NCBI RefSeq assembly: GCF_004752005.1
Contig: NZ_CP038493.1
Coordinates: 1,388,302 to 1,452,301 of the forward strand
Reading direction: 5' to 3'
DNA length: 64,000 nt
Origin: Thalassotalea sp. HSM 43
GTDB lineage: Bacteria; Pseudomonadota; Gammaproteobacteria; Enterobacterales; Alteromonadaceae
Position numbers and translations under genes: made by a program. Shown here piece after piece: positions 28,303 through 49,221 of the stretch; position 1 is the stretch's first letter, and each line of letters starts with the position of its first letter. The notes below the pieces were generated by a model, which did no database searches, was not told the origin of the DNA, and was given only the letters and a program-made list of their open reading frames with translations.

Positions 28303-28460
28303 CCTTGATACCTTTAATTGAATCGTTCGAGATTTGCAGACACAAATTAGTTGTAAAATCTGAAAACGAGCTTTTAAGAAAAGCGCTTGAACGACTGTAG
28401 ATAGATTACAGTAAACTTTAACCTTTCCAGATAGTTAACGTCAATTTTGTATTAATCGCT

Positions 28461-28524
28461 CAAAAACAAAAAGAGCGCCGAAGCGCTCTTTTTTAAGGTT
28501 TGGTTTGTAACCAAATCAATCGAT
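28461..28524 (-). terminator. distal copy of the tuf2 terminator (64-bp repeat copy A)
   Basis: These 64 bases are identical by eye to 28708-28771 and to 47972-48035. They contain the stem AAGAGCGC / GCGCTCTT followed by a T-run on the minus strand (A-run on the plus strand), plus the sequence that normally joins the terminator to the tuf stop codon. No tuf coding sequence adjoins this copy. Confidence 0.85.
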
Positions 28525-28637: not shown

Positions 28638-28665
28638 GGTTGCGGCTTTCGCCGCAATGACGGTG
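28638..28665. repeat. solo palindromic repeat, same family as the GIY-YIG flanks
   Basis: This 28-bp sequence contains the hairpin TTGCGGC-TTTC-GCCGCAA and continues ATGACGGTG. It differs at one base from 47701-47728. It lies between the two tuf2 terminator copies. Confidence 0.8.
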
Positions 28666-28707: not shown

Positions 28708-28771
28708 CAAAAACAAAAAGAGCGCCGAAGCGCTCTTTTTTAAGGTTTGGTTTGTAACCAAATCAATCGAT
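28708..28771 (-). terminator. proximal tuf2 terminator (64-bp repeat copy B)
   Basis: This copy ends one base before the tuf2 stop codon. The GC-rich stem AGAGCGC/GCGCTCT with a poly-T tail on the minus strand is a strong intrinsic terminator. A second, weaker pairing TTTGGTT/AACCAAA lies between it and the stop codon. Confidence 0.88.
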
Positions 28772-28772
28772 A

Positions 28773-29957
28773 TTAGTCGATGATTTTAGATACAACACCA
28801 GCACCTACTGTACGGCCACCTTCACGGATAGCGAAGCGTAAACCTTCGTCCATCGCGATTGGGTTGATAAGCTCAACAACAAACTTCAAGTTGTCGCCTG
28901 GCATTACCATTTCTACACCTTCTGGAAGCTCTACTGCACCAGTGATGTCTGTCGTACGGAAGTAAAACTGTGGACGGTAACCTTTAAAGAATGGTGTGTG
29001 ACGACCACCTTCATCTTTGGTTAGTACGTATACTTCTGATTCGAACTTCGTGTGAGGAGTGATTGAACCTGGCTTAGCAAGTACTTGACCACGTTGAACT
29101 TCATCACGCTTAGTACCACGTAGAAGAACACCACAGTTCTCACCAGCACGACCTTCGTCTAGAAGCTTACGGAACATCTCTACACCAGTACAAGTCGTAG
29201 TTGTAGTATCTTTGATACCAACGATTTCTACATCTTCACCAACTTTGATGATACCGCGCTCAACACGACCAGTAACAACAGTACCACGACCTTGGATTGA
29301 GAATACATCTTCGATTGGAAGAATGAAGTCACCGTCAATCGCACGCTCTGGCTCTGGAATGTAAGTGTCTAGTGCTTCTGCAAGTTCTAGTACTTTCGCT
29401 TCCCAATTCGCTTCACCGTTCAATGCACCTAGTGCTGAACCTTGGATAACTGGTAGGTCATCACCTGGGAAGTCATATTCTGAAAGAAGTTCACGAACTT
29501 CCATCTCTACTAGCTCAAGTAGCTCTTCGTCATCAACCATGTCACATTTGTTCATGAATACGATGATGAAAGGTACACCAACCTGACGTGAAAGAAGGAT
29601 GTGCTCACGTGTTTGTGGCATTGGACCATCTGTCGCTGCAACTACTAGAATCGCGCCGTCCATTTGTGCCGCACCTGTGATCATGTTTTTAACGTAATCG
29701 GCGTGACCAGGACAGTCTACGTGTGCGTAGTGACGAGTCTCTGTATCGTACTCAATGTGAGAAGTGTTGATTGTGATACCACGCTCACGCTCTTCTGGAG
29801 CGTTATCGATTTGAGCGAAATCACGTACTTCACCACCGTGAGTTTTAGTTAGAACTGCAGAAATCGCAGCAGTTAGAGTTGTTTTACCGTGGTCAACGTG
29901 ACCGATAGTACCAACGTTAACGTGCGGTTTCGAACGTTCAAATTTTTCTTTAGCCAT
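28773..29957 (-). CDS. tuf: elongation factor Tu, second copy
   Basis: EF-Tu delivers aminoacyl-tRNA to the ribosome. The 394-residue product has all GTPase motifs: GHVDHGKT (19-26), DCPGH (81-85) and NKCD (136-139). It differs from the copy at 48037-49221 at one residue by eye (Asp250 here, Glu250 there). About eleven nucleotide differences are visible, three of them clustered at codons 250-254. It is alone in its transcription unit, divergent from fusA2, with its own promoter and duplicated terminators. A location beside fusA2 rather than tRNA genes or secE is unusual. Confidence 0.97.
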
Positions 29958-45764: not shown

Positions 45765-46880
45765 TTACTGTTGCCAAGGCGTTTGCTCTCTTAACGTTAG
45801 TATCTTACTGATAAAGTCTTCACGATTGGTATAACCACCGGCTAAGTGGCGGAAACCGCTAAACGCAGTTCGTGCATGCATGACACGCCAATTATCGAAC
45901 CACACTGCTCGACCGGGTTGCAATTGAAAGTTGACTTGGAAGGCTGGATCATTAATCAATTGCTGAAAACGACCGTAGGCTTTGTAAAACGCTCTTTGCT
46001 GTGCAGGCGCCAACATAAATGGGCTGCGATCGTAATTATTAAAACAAATTTGTTTAAACTGCCCCTGGCTATTCTCGGTTACAACGCAATGTTCCGCTCT
46101 AAGCTGTATGCCTGGCTCTAAATAATGAGCAGGCACCTGTATTTGGGTAAGCAATTGGTACGCTTCAGGGTCTTCATCTTTGATGGTTTGCGCAACTTTA
46201 AAACCGTCTGCGAACTGATTAAAACCACCTTCGCCATTAAACGCTATGCAGTGCAACAATTGCAGACCCGGCGGATCGATAGTGTAGGTACCATCGGTAT
46301 GTAATCCAATACCGACACTGGTATAGGCACTATCACTGTGCGCTTCATTGTTCGAGAAATCCCATAAACCACCAAATACGGTTTCACGAATATAACCGAC
46401 TTGCTCTAACAGTTTTTTCGTGGCTTGCATGTCATTGGGCATGCCTGAAAATGTCACTAGGCCATGCTTTTCAATAGCATCAAGAACCGGTAAAAAGCCA
46501 GCGCTACTTTCGGTTACGTCATTAAAATCAAAGTTTGCGATTTGGTCTTGCAGATCACTGGCCCACAACTCATACGCCGGTGGAGCAACCGCATTAAACG
46601 CCATTCGATATAAGAAATCGGCGGCAAATACACTGCTGATACTATCGTCTTGCCAATGCAATTCGAGTGTCGCGCCATTGTCACCGATGTTAACATTTGC
46701 CACTTCAGGGCAATCTGGTAAAGCGAATGTCTCAACGTCACGCTGCAATGTACTGGTATTAAGGCTTGTTGCATCGGTACTGTGATCTCTTAACCAAAAC
46801 AAACTAAACTCGCCCGTTTGATTATCAGAGAAAGTCACTAATAGGTTTTCATTTAAACGTTCAACACGTTGAATGTGCAT
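45765..46880 (-). CDS. gamma-butyrobetaine dioxygenase-like 2-oxoglutarate/Fe(II) oxygenase
   Basis: The 371-residue protein has an N-terminal GBBH-like domain (SLFWLRDHSTDATSLN) and a TauD-fold C-terminal domain. The Fe(II) facial triad is visible as HTD (GLHTDGTYTIDPPG, about residue 192) and the distal His (WRVMHARTAFSG, about 334). The Arg after it would bind 2-oxoglutarate. This layout is shared by gamma-butyrobetaine hydroxylase and trimethyllysine dioxygenase, the two oxygenases of carnitine biosynthesis. The downstream aldehyde dehydrogenase supports the first. It starts the two-gene operon. Confidence 0.85.
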   Translation of the reverse strand: MHIQRVERLNENLLVTFSDNQTGEFSLFWLRDHSTDATSLNTSTLQRDVETFALPDCPEVANVNIGDNGATLELHWQDDSISSVFAADFLYRMAFNAVAPPAYELWASDLQDQIANFDFNDVTESSAGFLPVLDAIEKHGLVTFSGMPNDMQATKKLLEQVGYIRETVFGGLWDFSNNEAHSDSAYTSVGIGLHTDGTYTIDPPGLQLLHCIAFNGEGGFNQFADGFKVAQTIKDEDPEAYQLLTQIQVPAHYLEPGIQLRAEHCVVTENSQGQFKQICFNNYDRSPFMLAPAQQRAFYKAYGRFQQLINDPAFQVNFQLQPGRAVWFDNWRVMHARTAFSGFRHLAGGYTNREDFISKILTLREQTPWQQ

Positions 46881-47119
46881 TGCAGATTTCCTTTAAAAAT
46901 GGTGTCAGTCACGTCGTTTTGTAAATGCCGCTAACACAGACAGCATTTTTGCGATGATTGCAGAACTAAACGACGTAAGTGTTATCTAGCCTTTGCTATG
47001 CGAGCTTACCGGAAAAGCACATACAATGGCATCAACATACGCTGAGTGACAGGATAATTAAGATTTAGGTAATATACCAGTGCTTCGCAAGATATAGGTA
47101 ACAAACACCATGATGTTGT

Positions 47120-47155
47120 AAGTTCGAAGTGAATTTGAAGGGCTGCCTTGTGCCA
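47120..47155. repeat. dispersed repeat, copy 2 of 2 in window
   Basis: This 36-bp sequence matches 27061-27096 with three mismatches. The two copies lie about 20 kb apart in the same orientation, both downstream of a tuf gene. Confidence 0.75.
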
Positions 47156-47178
47156 AAGGAGACTAAATAATATCGTGC

Positions 47179-47201
47179 TTCAAGGGGTCAGATCACTTGA
47201 A
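47179..47201. repeat. REP-like GATCTGACCCC palindromic fragment
   Basis: TTCAAG and CTTGAA flank the core GGGGTCAGATCA. Sequences of this type (GATCTGACCCC read on the minus strand) are familiar from REP-like elements of marine gammaproteobacteria. No transposase is adjacent, so this is a fragment. Confidence 0.45.
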
Positions 47202-47252
47202 ACTAATTATTTCCGCTTTGTGCCAATAGCGGAAGTAGAAACTATGATTTTT

Positions 47253-47283
47253 CACCGTCATTGCGGCAAAGGCCGCAACCCCG
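47253..47283. repeat. left inverted repeat flanking the GIY-YIG gene
   Basis: This 31-bp sequence starts CACCGTCATTGCGGC and contains its own hairpin TTGCGGC-AAAG-GCCGCAA. It matches the reverse complement of 47698-47728 with one mismatch. A solo copy lies at 28638-28665. Confidence 0.88.
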
Positions 47284-47314
47284 ATGACTACTCTGTGACT
47301 GTATATACTCGCAC

Positions 47315-47602
47315 TTAAATAATATCAAAATATAAATCTCGCCAATCTGGATTCATTTCACCAATTAACCTCTCTTTCCATCGTCTATGCCATTGTTTTA
47401 ATCTTTTCTCTCTTGTAATTGCATTATCCATATCGTCAAAAGTTTCAAAGTAAACTAATTTAGTTAGGTTATATTTGGCACTAAAACCTCTAATTGTCTT
47501 ATGCTTATGCTGATAGACGCGCTGAATTAAATTGCTGGTTACGCCAATGTATAGAACAGTATTTCGCTCGTTAGAAAGAATATAAATTACAGGTCGTTTC
47601 AT
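47315..47602 (-). CDS. stand-alone GIY-YIG nuclease-domain protein
   Basis: The 95-residue protein is almost only a GIY-YIG domain: YIL...YIG strands (VIYILSNERN, VLYIGVTSNL), the conserved Arg in IQRVYQHKH, and a likely metal-binding Glu in ITREKRLKQWHR. It resembles the YhbQ/COG2827 class, whose substrates are poorly known. I chose ATG 47600-47602 (MKRPVIYIL) over an in-frame TTG at 47620. The gene is AT-rich and lies inside a 476-bp segment bounded by 31-bp inverted repeats. That arrangement suggests it is, or was, part of a small mobile or repeat-spreading unit. Confidence 0.88.
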   Translation of the reverse strand: MKRPVIYILSNERNTVLYIGVTSNLIQRVYQHKHKTIRGFSAKYNLTKLVYFETFDDMDNAITREKRLKQWHRRWKERLIGEMNPDWRDLYFDII

Positions 47603-47697
47603 AATTGAAGTCCATTTCAAAAAATGAACTTTAATTATAGTTTAGATTTGTTTTTGAAAACGTAGTGGTAGGTATTTAGAGGCACACTTTTACGATA

Positions 47698-47728
47698 CGG
47701 GGTTGCGGCCTTCGCCGCAATGACGGTG
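47698..47728. repeat. right inverted repeat flanking the GIY-YIG gene
   Basis: This 31-bp sequence starts CGGGGTTGCGGCC and contains the hairpin TTGCGGC-CTTC-GCCGCAA. It is the inverted counterpart of 47253-47283, with one mismatch. Confidence 0.88.
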
Positions 47729-47819
47729 TTATTTTTGAGAGACAGCGTATAGCGGCTTATCGCTCTAACCAGACATTAACCTTTTCAATTAGTTAACGTC
47801 AAATATGTATTAAACGCGT

Positions 47820-47852
47820 AAAACAAAAAGAGCGCCGAAGCGCTCTTTTTTG
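47820..47852 (-). terminator. distal, partial copy of the tuf1 terminator
   Basis: The stem AAGAGCGC/GCGCTCTT and its T-run are kept, but the repeat ends just after the stem, unlike the full 64-bp copies. A sequence like TTAACC-N11-AGTTAACGTCAA precedes it, as it does the distal tuf2 copy. Confidence 0.8.
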
Positions 47853-47905
47853 GCTTTATTGTACGGCTCTAACGTCGGGCCAGAGGCCCTCGTCCTCACT
47901 CGCTA

Positions 47906-47929
47906 AAAACAGTCCAAGCGGACTGTTTT
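47906..47929. terminator. terminator-like hairpin between the tuf1 terminators
   Basis: A perfect 10-bp stem AAAACAGTCC / GGACTGTTTT with loop AAGC. It sits in unique sequence between the proximal and distal tuf1 terminator copies. Confidence 0.6.
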
Positions 47930-47971
47930 CTTAACGCGTTCGGTCATCAGGGAACACCGTGAAGCTGGCCT

Positions 47972-48035
47972 CAAAAACAAAAAGAGCGCCGAAGCGCTCT
48001 TTTTTAAGGTTTGGTTTGTAACCAAATCAATCGAT
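47972..48035 (-). terminator. proximal tuf1 terminator (64-bp repeat copy C)
   Basis: Identical by eye to the two tuf2 copies (28461-28524, 28708-28771). It ends one base before the tuf1 stop codon and ends the str operon. Confidence 0.9.
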
Positions 48036-48036
48036 A

Positions 48037-49221
48037 TTAATCGATGATTTTAGATACAACACCAGCACCTACTGTACGGCCACCTTCACGGATAGCGAAG
48101 CGTAAACCTTCGTCCATCGCGATTGGGTTGATAAGCTCAACAACAAACTTCAAGTTGTCGCCTGGCATTACCATTTCTACACCTTCTGGAAGCTCTACTG
48201 CACCAGTGATGTCTGTCGTACGGAAGTAAAACTGTGGACGGTAACCTTTAAAGAATGGCGTGTGACGACCACCTTCATCTTTGGTTAGTACGTATACTTC
48301 TGATTCGAACTTGGTGTGAGGAGTGATTGAACCTGGCTTAGCAAGTACTTGACCACGTTGAACTTCATCACGCTTAGTACCACGTAGAAGAACACCACAG
48401 TTCTCACCAGCACGACCTTCGTCTAGAAGCTTACGGAACATCTCTACACCAGTACAAGTCGTAGTAGTCGTTTCTTTGATACCAACGATTTCTACATCTT
48501 CACCAACTTTGATGATACCGCGCTCAACACGACCAGTAACAACAGTACCACGACCTTGGATTGAGAATACATCTTCGATTGGAAGAATGAAGTCACCGTC
48601 AATCGCACGCTCTGGCTCTGGAATGTAAGTGTCTAGTGCTTCTGCAAGTTCTAGTACTTTCGCTTCCCAATTCGCTTCACCGTTCAATGCACCTAGTGCT
48701 GAACCTTGGATAACTGGTAGGTCATCACCTGGGAAGTCATATTCTGAAAGAAGTTCACGAACTTCCATCTCTACTAGCTCAAGTAGCTCTTCGTCATCAA
48801 CCATGTCACATTTGTTCATGAATACGATGATGAAAGGTACACCAACCTGACGTGAAAGAAGGATGTGCTCACGTGTTTGTGGCATTGGACCATCTGTCGC
48901 TGCAACTACTAGAATCGCGCCGTCCATTTGTGCCGCACCTGTGATCATGTTTTTAACGTAATCGGCGTGACCAGGACAGTCTACGTGTGCGTAGTGACGA
49001 GTCTCTGTATCGTACTCAATGTGAGAAGTGTTGATTGTGATACCACGCTCACGCTCTTCTGGAGCGTTATCGATTTGAGCGAAATCACGTACTTCACCAC
49101 CGTGAGTTTTAGTTAAAACTGCAGAAATCGCAGCAGTTAGAGTTGTCTTGCCGTGGTCAACGTGGCCGATAGTACCAACGTTAACGTGCGGCTTCGAACG
49201 TTCAAATTTTTCTTTAGCCAT
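48037..49221 (-). CDS. tuf: elongation factor Tu, str-operon copy
   Basis: This 394-residue EF-Tu is the last gene of the rpsL-rpsG-fusA-tuf operon. GTPase motifs [13 protein letters not shown] and NKCD are intact. It differs from the tuf2 product only at residue 250 (Glu here). The near-identity over almost the whole gene, and exact identity of the terminators, points to gene conversion between the copies. It starts 82 bases after the fusA stop. Confidence 0.98.

Follow-up and report, generated by a model that had tools for sequence, protein, structure and literature searches.

In pathogenic Neisseria, single-stranded DNA is reportedly cut at a repeated sequence by Ssn, a member of a widespread family of GIY-YIG nucleases which Chenal et al. 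of the Veyrier group are said to have described in Nature Communications in 2025. The same work reportedly found that Ssn modulates natural transformation and that thousands of homologues exist, with corresponding sequences. The Neisseria homologue of the protein discussed below is thus already reported to recognise such a repeat and to cut it.

CGTC REPs are multicopy sequences with a CGTC tag unpaired at one end, a stem of 8–9 bp, a loop of 4–5 nt and a tail that is mostly CCA, and they form inverted head-to-head dimers (Di Nocera, De Gregorio and Rocco 2013, PMC3733652). That paper reports them in five phyla, apparently with no associated transposase genes, and lists the Neisseria repeat dRS3 as CGTC-1; the string ‘GIY’ is absent from its main text. 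REPs of another kind, tagged with GTAG, belong to the RAYTs, which are tyrosine (Y1) enzymes. Small stand-alone genes resembling the N-terminal part of UvrC (COG2827 endonucleases) are present in three copies in Caulobacter crescentus, where a role in repair was suggested and one copy has an SOS box (PMC1839093). Literature searches joining GIY-YIG with REP-type terms, and searches on COG2827, showed no report of a link between nuclease and REP among the papers listed.

Here we describe a locus in a 64,000-nt stretch of the chromosome of Thalassotalea sp. HSM 43 (the window) which we read, with a probability of about 0.72, as a small mobile element in which two inverted, cognate CGTC-tagged REP hairpins enclose a GIY-YIG nuclease gene of the Ssn type. 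As with Ssn, the protein is small and stand-alone with intact active-site residues, the Neisseria homologue likewise lies among palindromic repeats, and each Ssn homologue is reported to have its own sequence. The window repeat, too, has copies next to the gene as well as at other places in the genome, and the word ‘cognate’ refers here to matched ends and linkage. Set against Ssn, the hairpins of the present locus bracket one gene as a unit, and this unit occurs in filled and empty versions and also as derivatives that lack the gene. RAYT-REP systems are alike in that a nuclease-type gene is bracketed by REPs thought to be mobilised by the enzyme, with gene-less REP pairs in addition, but they pair a Y1 enzyme with GTAG tags, whereas here a GIY-YIG enzyme is paired with CGTC tags. 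The Caulobacter genes are similar in being stand-alone and multicopy; they are set beside the present gene by description, and the part of their report used here makes no mention of flanking repeats (PMC1839093). The anatomy of the mobile unit (matched bracketing ends, an empty junction and gene-less derivatives) and the probable identity of its repeats as members of the CGTC REP superfamily may be new.

Architecture of the locus

A preliminary description of the window had proposed a 95-residue stand-alone GIY-YIG gene between inverted 31-bp hairpin ends that differ at one base, and this was confirmed by the open reading frame, the Pfam match, alignment of the arms and folding (Table 1). The same frame was listed with 101 aa when read from an upstream TTG. 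The two arms, inverted and 97% complementary, are spaced by 414 nt and have the structure CACCGTCATTGCGGC-NAAG-GCCGCAACCCCG, with a 7-bp stem, a 4-nt loop and the CGTC tag pointing outward; as single-stranded DNA they fold at −9 kcal/mol, with z-scores of −3.59 and −3.29.

Table 1. Coordinates, in the window, of the nuclease unit and associated features
Feature	Position	Strand	Details
GIY-YIG nuclease gene	47315..47602	-	95 aa; ATG at 47602, stop 47315-47317; Pfam PF01541, E 1.8e-16
Left CGTC-tagged hairpin (REP), 31 nt, tag outward	47253..47283	+	One base unlike right arm
Right CGTC-tagged hairpin (REP), 31 nt, tag outward	47698..47728	-	Inverted-arm search and fold
590-bp segment, best estimate of duplicated unit	47176..47765	.	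97.6% to second genome copy, C1 ~1555 kb
Candidate empty site of sister GIY-YIG unit	47175..47176	.	Paralogous tuf-downstream region (L001) filled exactly there
Solo REP of same type, downstream of other tuf gene	28638..28664	-	Repeat search

The unit had been given a length of 476 bp. It is bracketed as described, but the segment common to the window and the second copy measures 590 bp, so that the duplicated segment is longer than first thought. Its leftmost 57 bp (47176-47232) are also found outside it and may form a repeat of their own; whole or in part, they recur beside REP units at other places in the genome (L001, L004/L250 and L234), possibly as a dispersed repeat or a preferred neighbour.

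A solo copy of the repeat near the other tuf gene, also reported earlier, was found again and differs by one base from the 27-nt core of the right arm. It adjoins the tuf gene at 28773-29957, which is 99.07% identical to the one at 48037-49221. The C-terminal end of a third tuf lies just right of the window (L001, genome C1 ~1458 kb). The regions downstream of the tuf genes have terminator-like and other pieces in common, on which the empty-site comparison below is based; among them is a 32-bp terminator-like hairpin unit repeated at 47820-47851, 47974-48005, 28710-28741 and within 28459-28524. As a marker for empty versions of the window unit's own locus, the neighbouring gene (45765-46880) was present in only three of 14 genomes searched, and an Rfam search of 46900-48050 matched nothing.

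Hairpin copies in the host genome and the genus

In the host genome (4.01 Mb, one contig), the core CGTCATTGCGGC has 23 copies, compared with none for the reversed control, an excess not due to chance, and the full hairpin has 20 copies at two mismatches or fewer, four of these being the ends of two units. The window hairpin resembles published CGTC REPs in tag, copy number, short stem, 4-nt loop and inverted dimers, while differing in a stem of 7 instead of 8–9 bp and a CCC/CTC instead of a CCA tail. Stems of 8–9 bp and CCA tails, as published for CGTC REPs, are seen in further units of this family of nucleases.

All six Thalassotalea genomes with a gene of the window's type (GCGGC, after the hairpin) hold at least three GCGGC REPs; among the nine without such a gene, one (G002) has two and the other eight have none. 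Co-occurrence of gene and REP in trans goes beyond linkage, and the evidence for it is weaker: all six GCGGC REPs of one genome (G001) are unit ends, so that it comes mainly from the host genome, G007 and Thalassotalea ND16A (G008).

Conservation and classification of the nuclease

Residues Y6, H31, E64 and N83 were invariant among 70 homologues, and Y17, G19 and R27 were kept in at least 90% of them; we take these seven to be GIY-YIG active-site positions. No NCBIfam family was assigned to the window protein at E 0.001, and a search of phage records gave no match. PADLOC returned two weak matches, both to PDC-S14 (E 0.0012 and 0.0061), and PHROGs two weak matches to endonucleases (E about 2e-4), while the best match among solved structures (E 0.18) was to an unrelated protein.

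A homologue in N. gonorrhoeae, taken from a record of 2.17 Mb classed among the plasmids, covers 98% of the query at 55.9% identity and is presumably the published Ssn; one in N. elongata is 57% identical. The N. gonorrhoeae gene sits within an array of dRS3-like hairpins, in agreement with what is reported for Ssn, and the window protein and its repeat are therefore best filed as being of the Ssn kind. These sequence comparisons make the window gene most probably a new nuclease of the Ssn type, accompanied by the hairpins that it targets. The genome also encodes a stand-alone GIY-YIG protein that is UPF0213/YhbQ-like.

Flanking repeats across relatives

Relatives were collected by protein similarity alone, sometimes as several loci per genome, from the genus (15 genomes), the family (196) and the phylum (398), with a scan of named genomes adding 25 loci. 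In the phylum set, 104 of 398 genomes gave a match; loci were drawn from among the matches listed, with 40 more chosen by place, so the locus set holds a part of all search matches. Counting identical genes once reduced 217 genes to 207; by similarity, 160 of these fell with the window protein (A clade) and 47 with the YhbQ-like protein of the genome (B clade). After omission of loci with short flanks (22/160 and 1/47), 138 A-clade and 46 B-clade genes were counted. A gene was scored as bracketed when its two 300-bp flanks shared an inverted match with a score of at least 14, and shifted positions at the same loci served as controls.

Inverted flank repeats were found at 96 of 138 A-clade genes, compared to 3 of 274 shifted A positions, 1 of 46 B-clade genes and 1 of 92 shifted B positions. 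When tagged hairpins on both sides were also counted, these numbers became 105/138, 4/274, 1/46 and 1/92, respectively. The YhbQ-like proteins have the same domain and size as the window protein. Broken down by relatedness to the window, an inverted match was present at 3/3 loci of the genome itself, 21/31 of the genus, 12/24 of the family, 2/5 of the order, 5/7 of the class and 39/49 of the phylum; among named records, it was seen in 6/9 gammaproteobacterial, 4/5 alphaproteobacterial and 3/3 betaproteobacterial loci, in the one locus from Chloroflexota (1/1) and in 0/1 from Nitrospinota. An excess of the repeat next to the GIY-YIG genes of relatives, which had been put forward as a check, was accordingly seen, and the contrast between 96/138 and 3/274 supports the earlier suggestion of a REP-RAYT-like partnership with a different nuclease.

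Conservation of the gene without flanking repeats, named earlier as a finding that would count against such a partnership, was seen as an exception only: both measures of repeats were negative at 33 of the 138 A-clade genes, and a Rhizobium plasmid locus lacked a CGTC pair. That locus is common to eight records; in the two read for the pair (L220 and L221), the A-clade gene is kept at the same place with no pair of CGTC hairpins. A comparison of records with and without the unit was not obtained there, since the eight fullest records all carry the gene and the others listed cover 38–39% of the query (the left flank). A-clade genes lacking CGTC hairpins may use other repeats, of the CGTCATTGCGAGGA type in L048 and the CGTCATCCTGAGCGAG type in L025. 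On a Planktothrix plasmid (L216), an A-clade GIY-YIG gene has a type IIL restriction-modification gene (MmeI) on one side and drmA, the helicase gene of DISARM, on the other.

Correspondence between hairpins and nuclease

At 86 of 160 A-clade genes, each flank carried a [CT]GTCA hairpin no more than 350 bp away. Taking the nearest hairpin on each side, with no choice by match, stem identity was 0.919 within units and 0.604 between units (86 genes; 0/5000 permutations as high), and at least eight of nine stem bases were equal in 72 of 86 genes compared with 8.8% of cross pairs. The two hairpins were inverted in 66/86, with the tag outward in 59 of these, and ran in the same direction in 20/86. 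In 63 units pre-selected for a match of at least 0.8, stem identity was 0.974 within and 0.613 between units, values that are biased by the selection; in the pre-selected units, protein similarity correlated with REP similarity (Mantel r 0.382, 0/2000 permutations as high).

Units for the tree were likewise required to have a left-right match of at least 0.8, which retained 64 of 160. The tree held 29 proteins of the family, and only 4 of its 26 inner branches were strongly supported. REPs were put into six classes, namely five stem types plus a residual class of two, and these needed five changes on the tree, which is the minimum and was reached in none of 200 label shuffles. The host genome, G001 and ND16A each carry both GCGGC- and CCCACC-type units, and these fall on separate branches of the tree. 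Simple linkage of a gene to its ends could by itself produce such agreement between REP type and protein tree. Judged from the sequences compared, nuclease and hairpin very likely form a cognate pair.

Filled, empty and gene-less sites

A sister unit was found as a 595-bp insert in the paralogous region downstream of the third tuf (L001 1329-1923, about 1457 kb), exactly at the junction equivalent to 47175/47176, which is uninterrupted in the window. Its nuclease is 66% identical to that of the window and lies between CCCACC-type hairpins. Paralogy of the two regions is supported by a match of 47755-47851 to L001 2363-2459 (99%) and by the order of shared stretches, which continues to the right. 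The flanks of the sister insertion, of 51 bp (92%) and 57 bp (98%), recur elsewhere near REPs, and the right end of the insert resembles the left flank inverted, so that a mosaic rearrangement is an alternative to insertion at this point. Empty sites had been proposed as a thing to look for, and this junction is a candidate, with filled and empty versions in Sphingobium (below) as another instance. Target-site duplication had been suggested too; at the sister-unit junction, the only one in this genome compared base by base, the duplicated target amounts to one base at most, in which the unit differs from a classical DDE insertion sequence.

At least six GCGGC-type copies of the unit are present in Thalassotalea ND16A (L036, L037, L038, L040, L041 and L047), with differing outer flanks. 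Immediately outside the tag, 18 of 39 GCGGC hairpins of the set examined were preceded by ATTAACCA, 19 by an A-rich end of the ...CAC type and two by neither. In a profile of ends picked by their last letters, the last 10 nt are near-invariant by construction, and agreement continues outward to about 50–60 nt before falling to background. Gene-less pairs with the same hairpins and the same outer and inner ends were found in G007 (L253-L255) and in ND16A (L256-L258).

In Sphingobium megaplasmids, a unit lies between fnrL and a response-regulator gene in seven records and is missing in four. Three fetched records are filled (TomMM7A, TomTYG46 and TomMM15), with REP, gene and REP in order. Among those without the unit, of which three of four fetched were aligned (L228 was left out), TomTYG64 has a single double-tagged palindrome at the place of the unit, TomTYG74 has a degenerate form of it, seen by eye and below the detector, and TomTYG72 has unrelated sequence. 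This single palindrome may represent a target, or it may have arisen by deletion between 7-bp direct repeats. In Shinella strains WSC3-e and HZN7, the gene lies between two REP pairs, i.e. with one extra pair, and in H4-D48 and S. oryzae, the two aligned of three fetched records without the unit (L231 was left out), the gene is absent and no clear REP is seen at the site.

Gene copies of three genomes were compared in 17 pairs; dN was lower than dS in 16 of these, the remaining pair showing one nonsynonymous and no synonymous change. Some copies are broken, including three of the six units of G001, which have an in-frame stop (L035, L087 and L088). Taken as a comparison of sequences, these data suggest that the unit is likely to be mobile, now or recently.

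Proposed mechanism and alternative explanations

Comparison of loci shows linkage and co-inheritance of the gene with its own hairpin type and multicopy units with shared ends in some genomes. It likewise shows gene-less derivatives with the same ends, filled and empty sites, and low dN/dS in the copies compared. By homology, and by what is reported for Ssn, the nuclease would bind tag and hairpin in single-stranded DNA and cut there. If REPs were cut in single strands that are exposed or incoming, this might set off recombination, which could copy the REP-gene-REP unit, or gene-less REP pairs, into new intergenic sites; in such a scheme the nuclease may be the driver of the unit's spreading. 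With a duplicated target of one base at most, the sister unit fits a recombination route better than staggered double-strand cut-and-paste.

Because gene and own hairpin version co-occur in many bacteria, the enzyme is very probably the partner of repeats that in 2013 were believed to have no enzyme of their own. A wider proposal, to which we give slightly less than an even chance, is that REP-GIY-REP units form a class of autonomous mobile elements. The CGTC REP superfamily would then have its missing mobiliser in a GIY-YIG nuclease of single strands, and gene-less REP pairs would be non-autonomous derivatives, in parallel to RAYTs and GTAG REPs with an unrelated nuclease. With a gene that carries its own repeat at either end, and with sites both filled and empty, the origin of CGTC REPs can be tested directly. 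If Ssn nucleases do also move their targets, repeat networks such as dRS3 of Neisseria would be debris of nuclease elements, and not only docking sites.

The most serious competitor to a mobile element is a nuclease that cuts incoming single-stranded DNA sequence-specifically and so tunes natural transformation, its gene lying among its own targets and its copies being spread passively by transformation and homologous recombination. Such a role is the one reported for the Neisseria homologue, whose gene in N. gonorrhoeae is surrounded by dRS3-like repeats; linked gene-repeat pairs would fit it equally well, as would the near absence of a target-site duplication (one base at most) at the sister unit. 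However, copies with shared ends within unrelated outer flanks, together with gene-less dimers that have these ends too, suggest that a discrete unit was inserted, rather than that exchange took place through homologous flanks, and we regard passive spread as unlikely, though the best of the alternatives.

Far less probable is mobilisation of the REPs by another enzyme, e.g. a RAYT/Y1 transposase, with the nuclease gene as cargo caught between them. A Y1_Tnp match does occur in 12 of 15 Thalassotalea genomes, but a test for mobilisers covering Y1 (RAYT-type) transposases gave this reading no support across the genus: none of 22 Y1 loci, counted whole at 2.3–3.4 kb each, contained a [CT]GTCA hairpin, and G001 has six units yet no Y1 match. 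Nor would cargo be expected to stay within one gene family, and to keep its ends matched, all the way from Thalassotalea to alpha- and betaproteobacteria. As for pure coincidence, a gene fallen by chance between two older repeats (an alternative raised in the preliminary description), the solo REPs of the window type dispersed through the genome would supply the material; enrichment of flank repeats over shifted positions, the matching of the two ends and the agreement of REP type with the protein tree nevertheless lead us to reject it as having next to no probability.

Heterodimers and symmetric palindromes

Besides the units, the host genome contains gene-less heterodimers in several similar copies (L234, L238 and L239 with an offset of 81, and L241-L244 with an offset of 108), in which a GCGGC-type hairpin is combined with a CCCACC-type or related hairpin in inverted order. 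Double-tagged symmetric palindromes of the form CGTCA...TGACG, found at L046 3320-3347 and L227 1291-1319, look like collapsed REP pairs.
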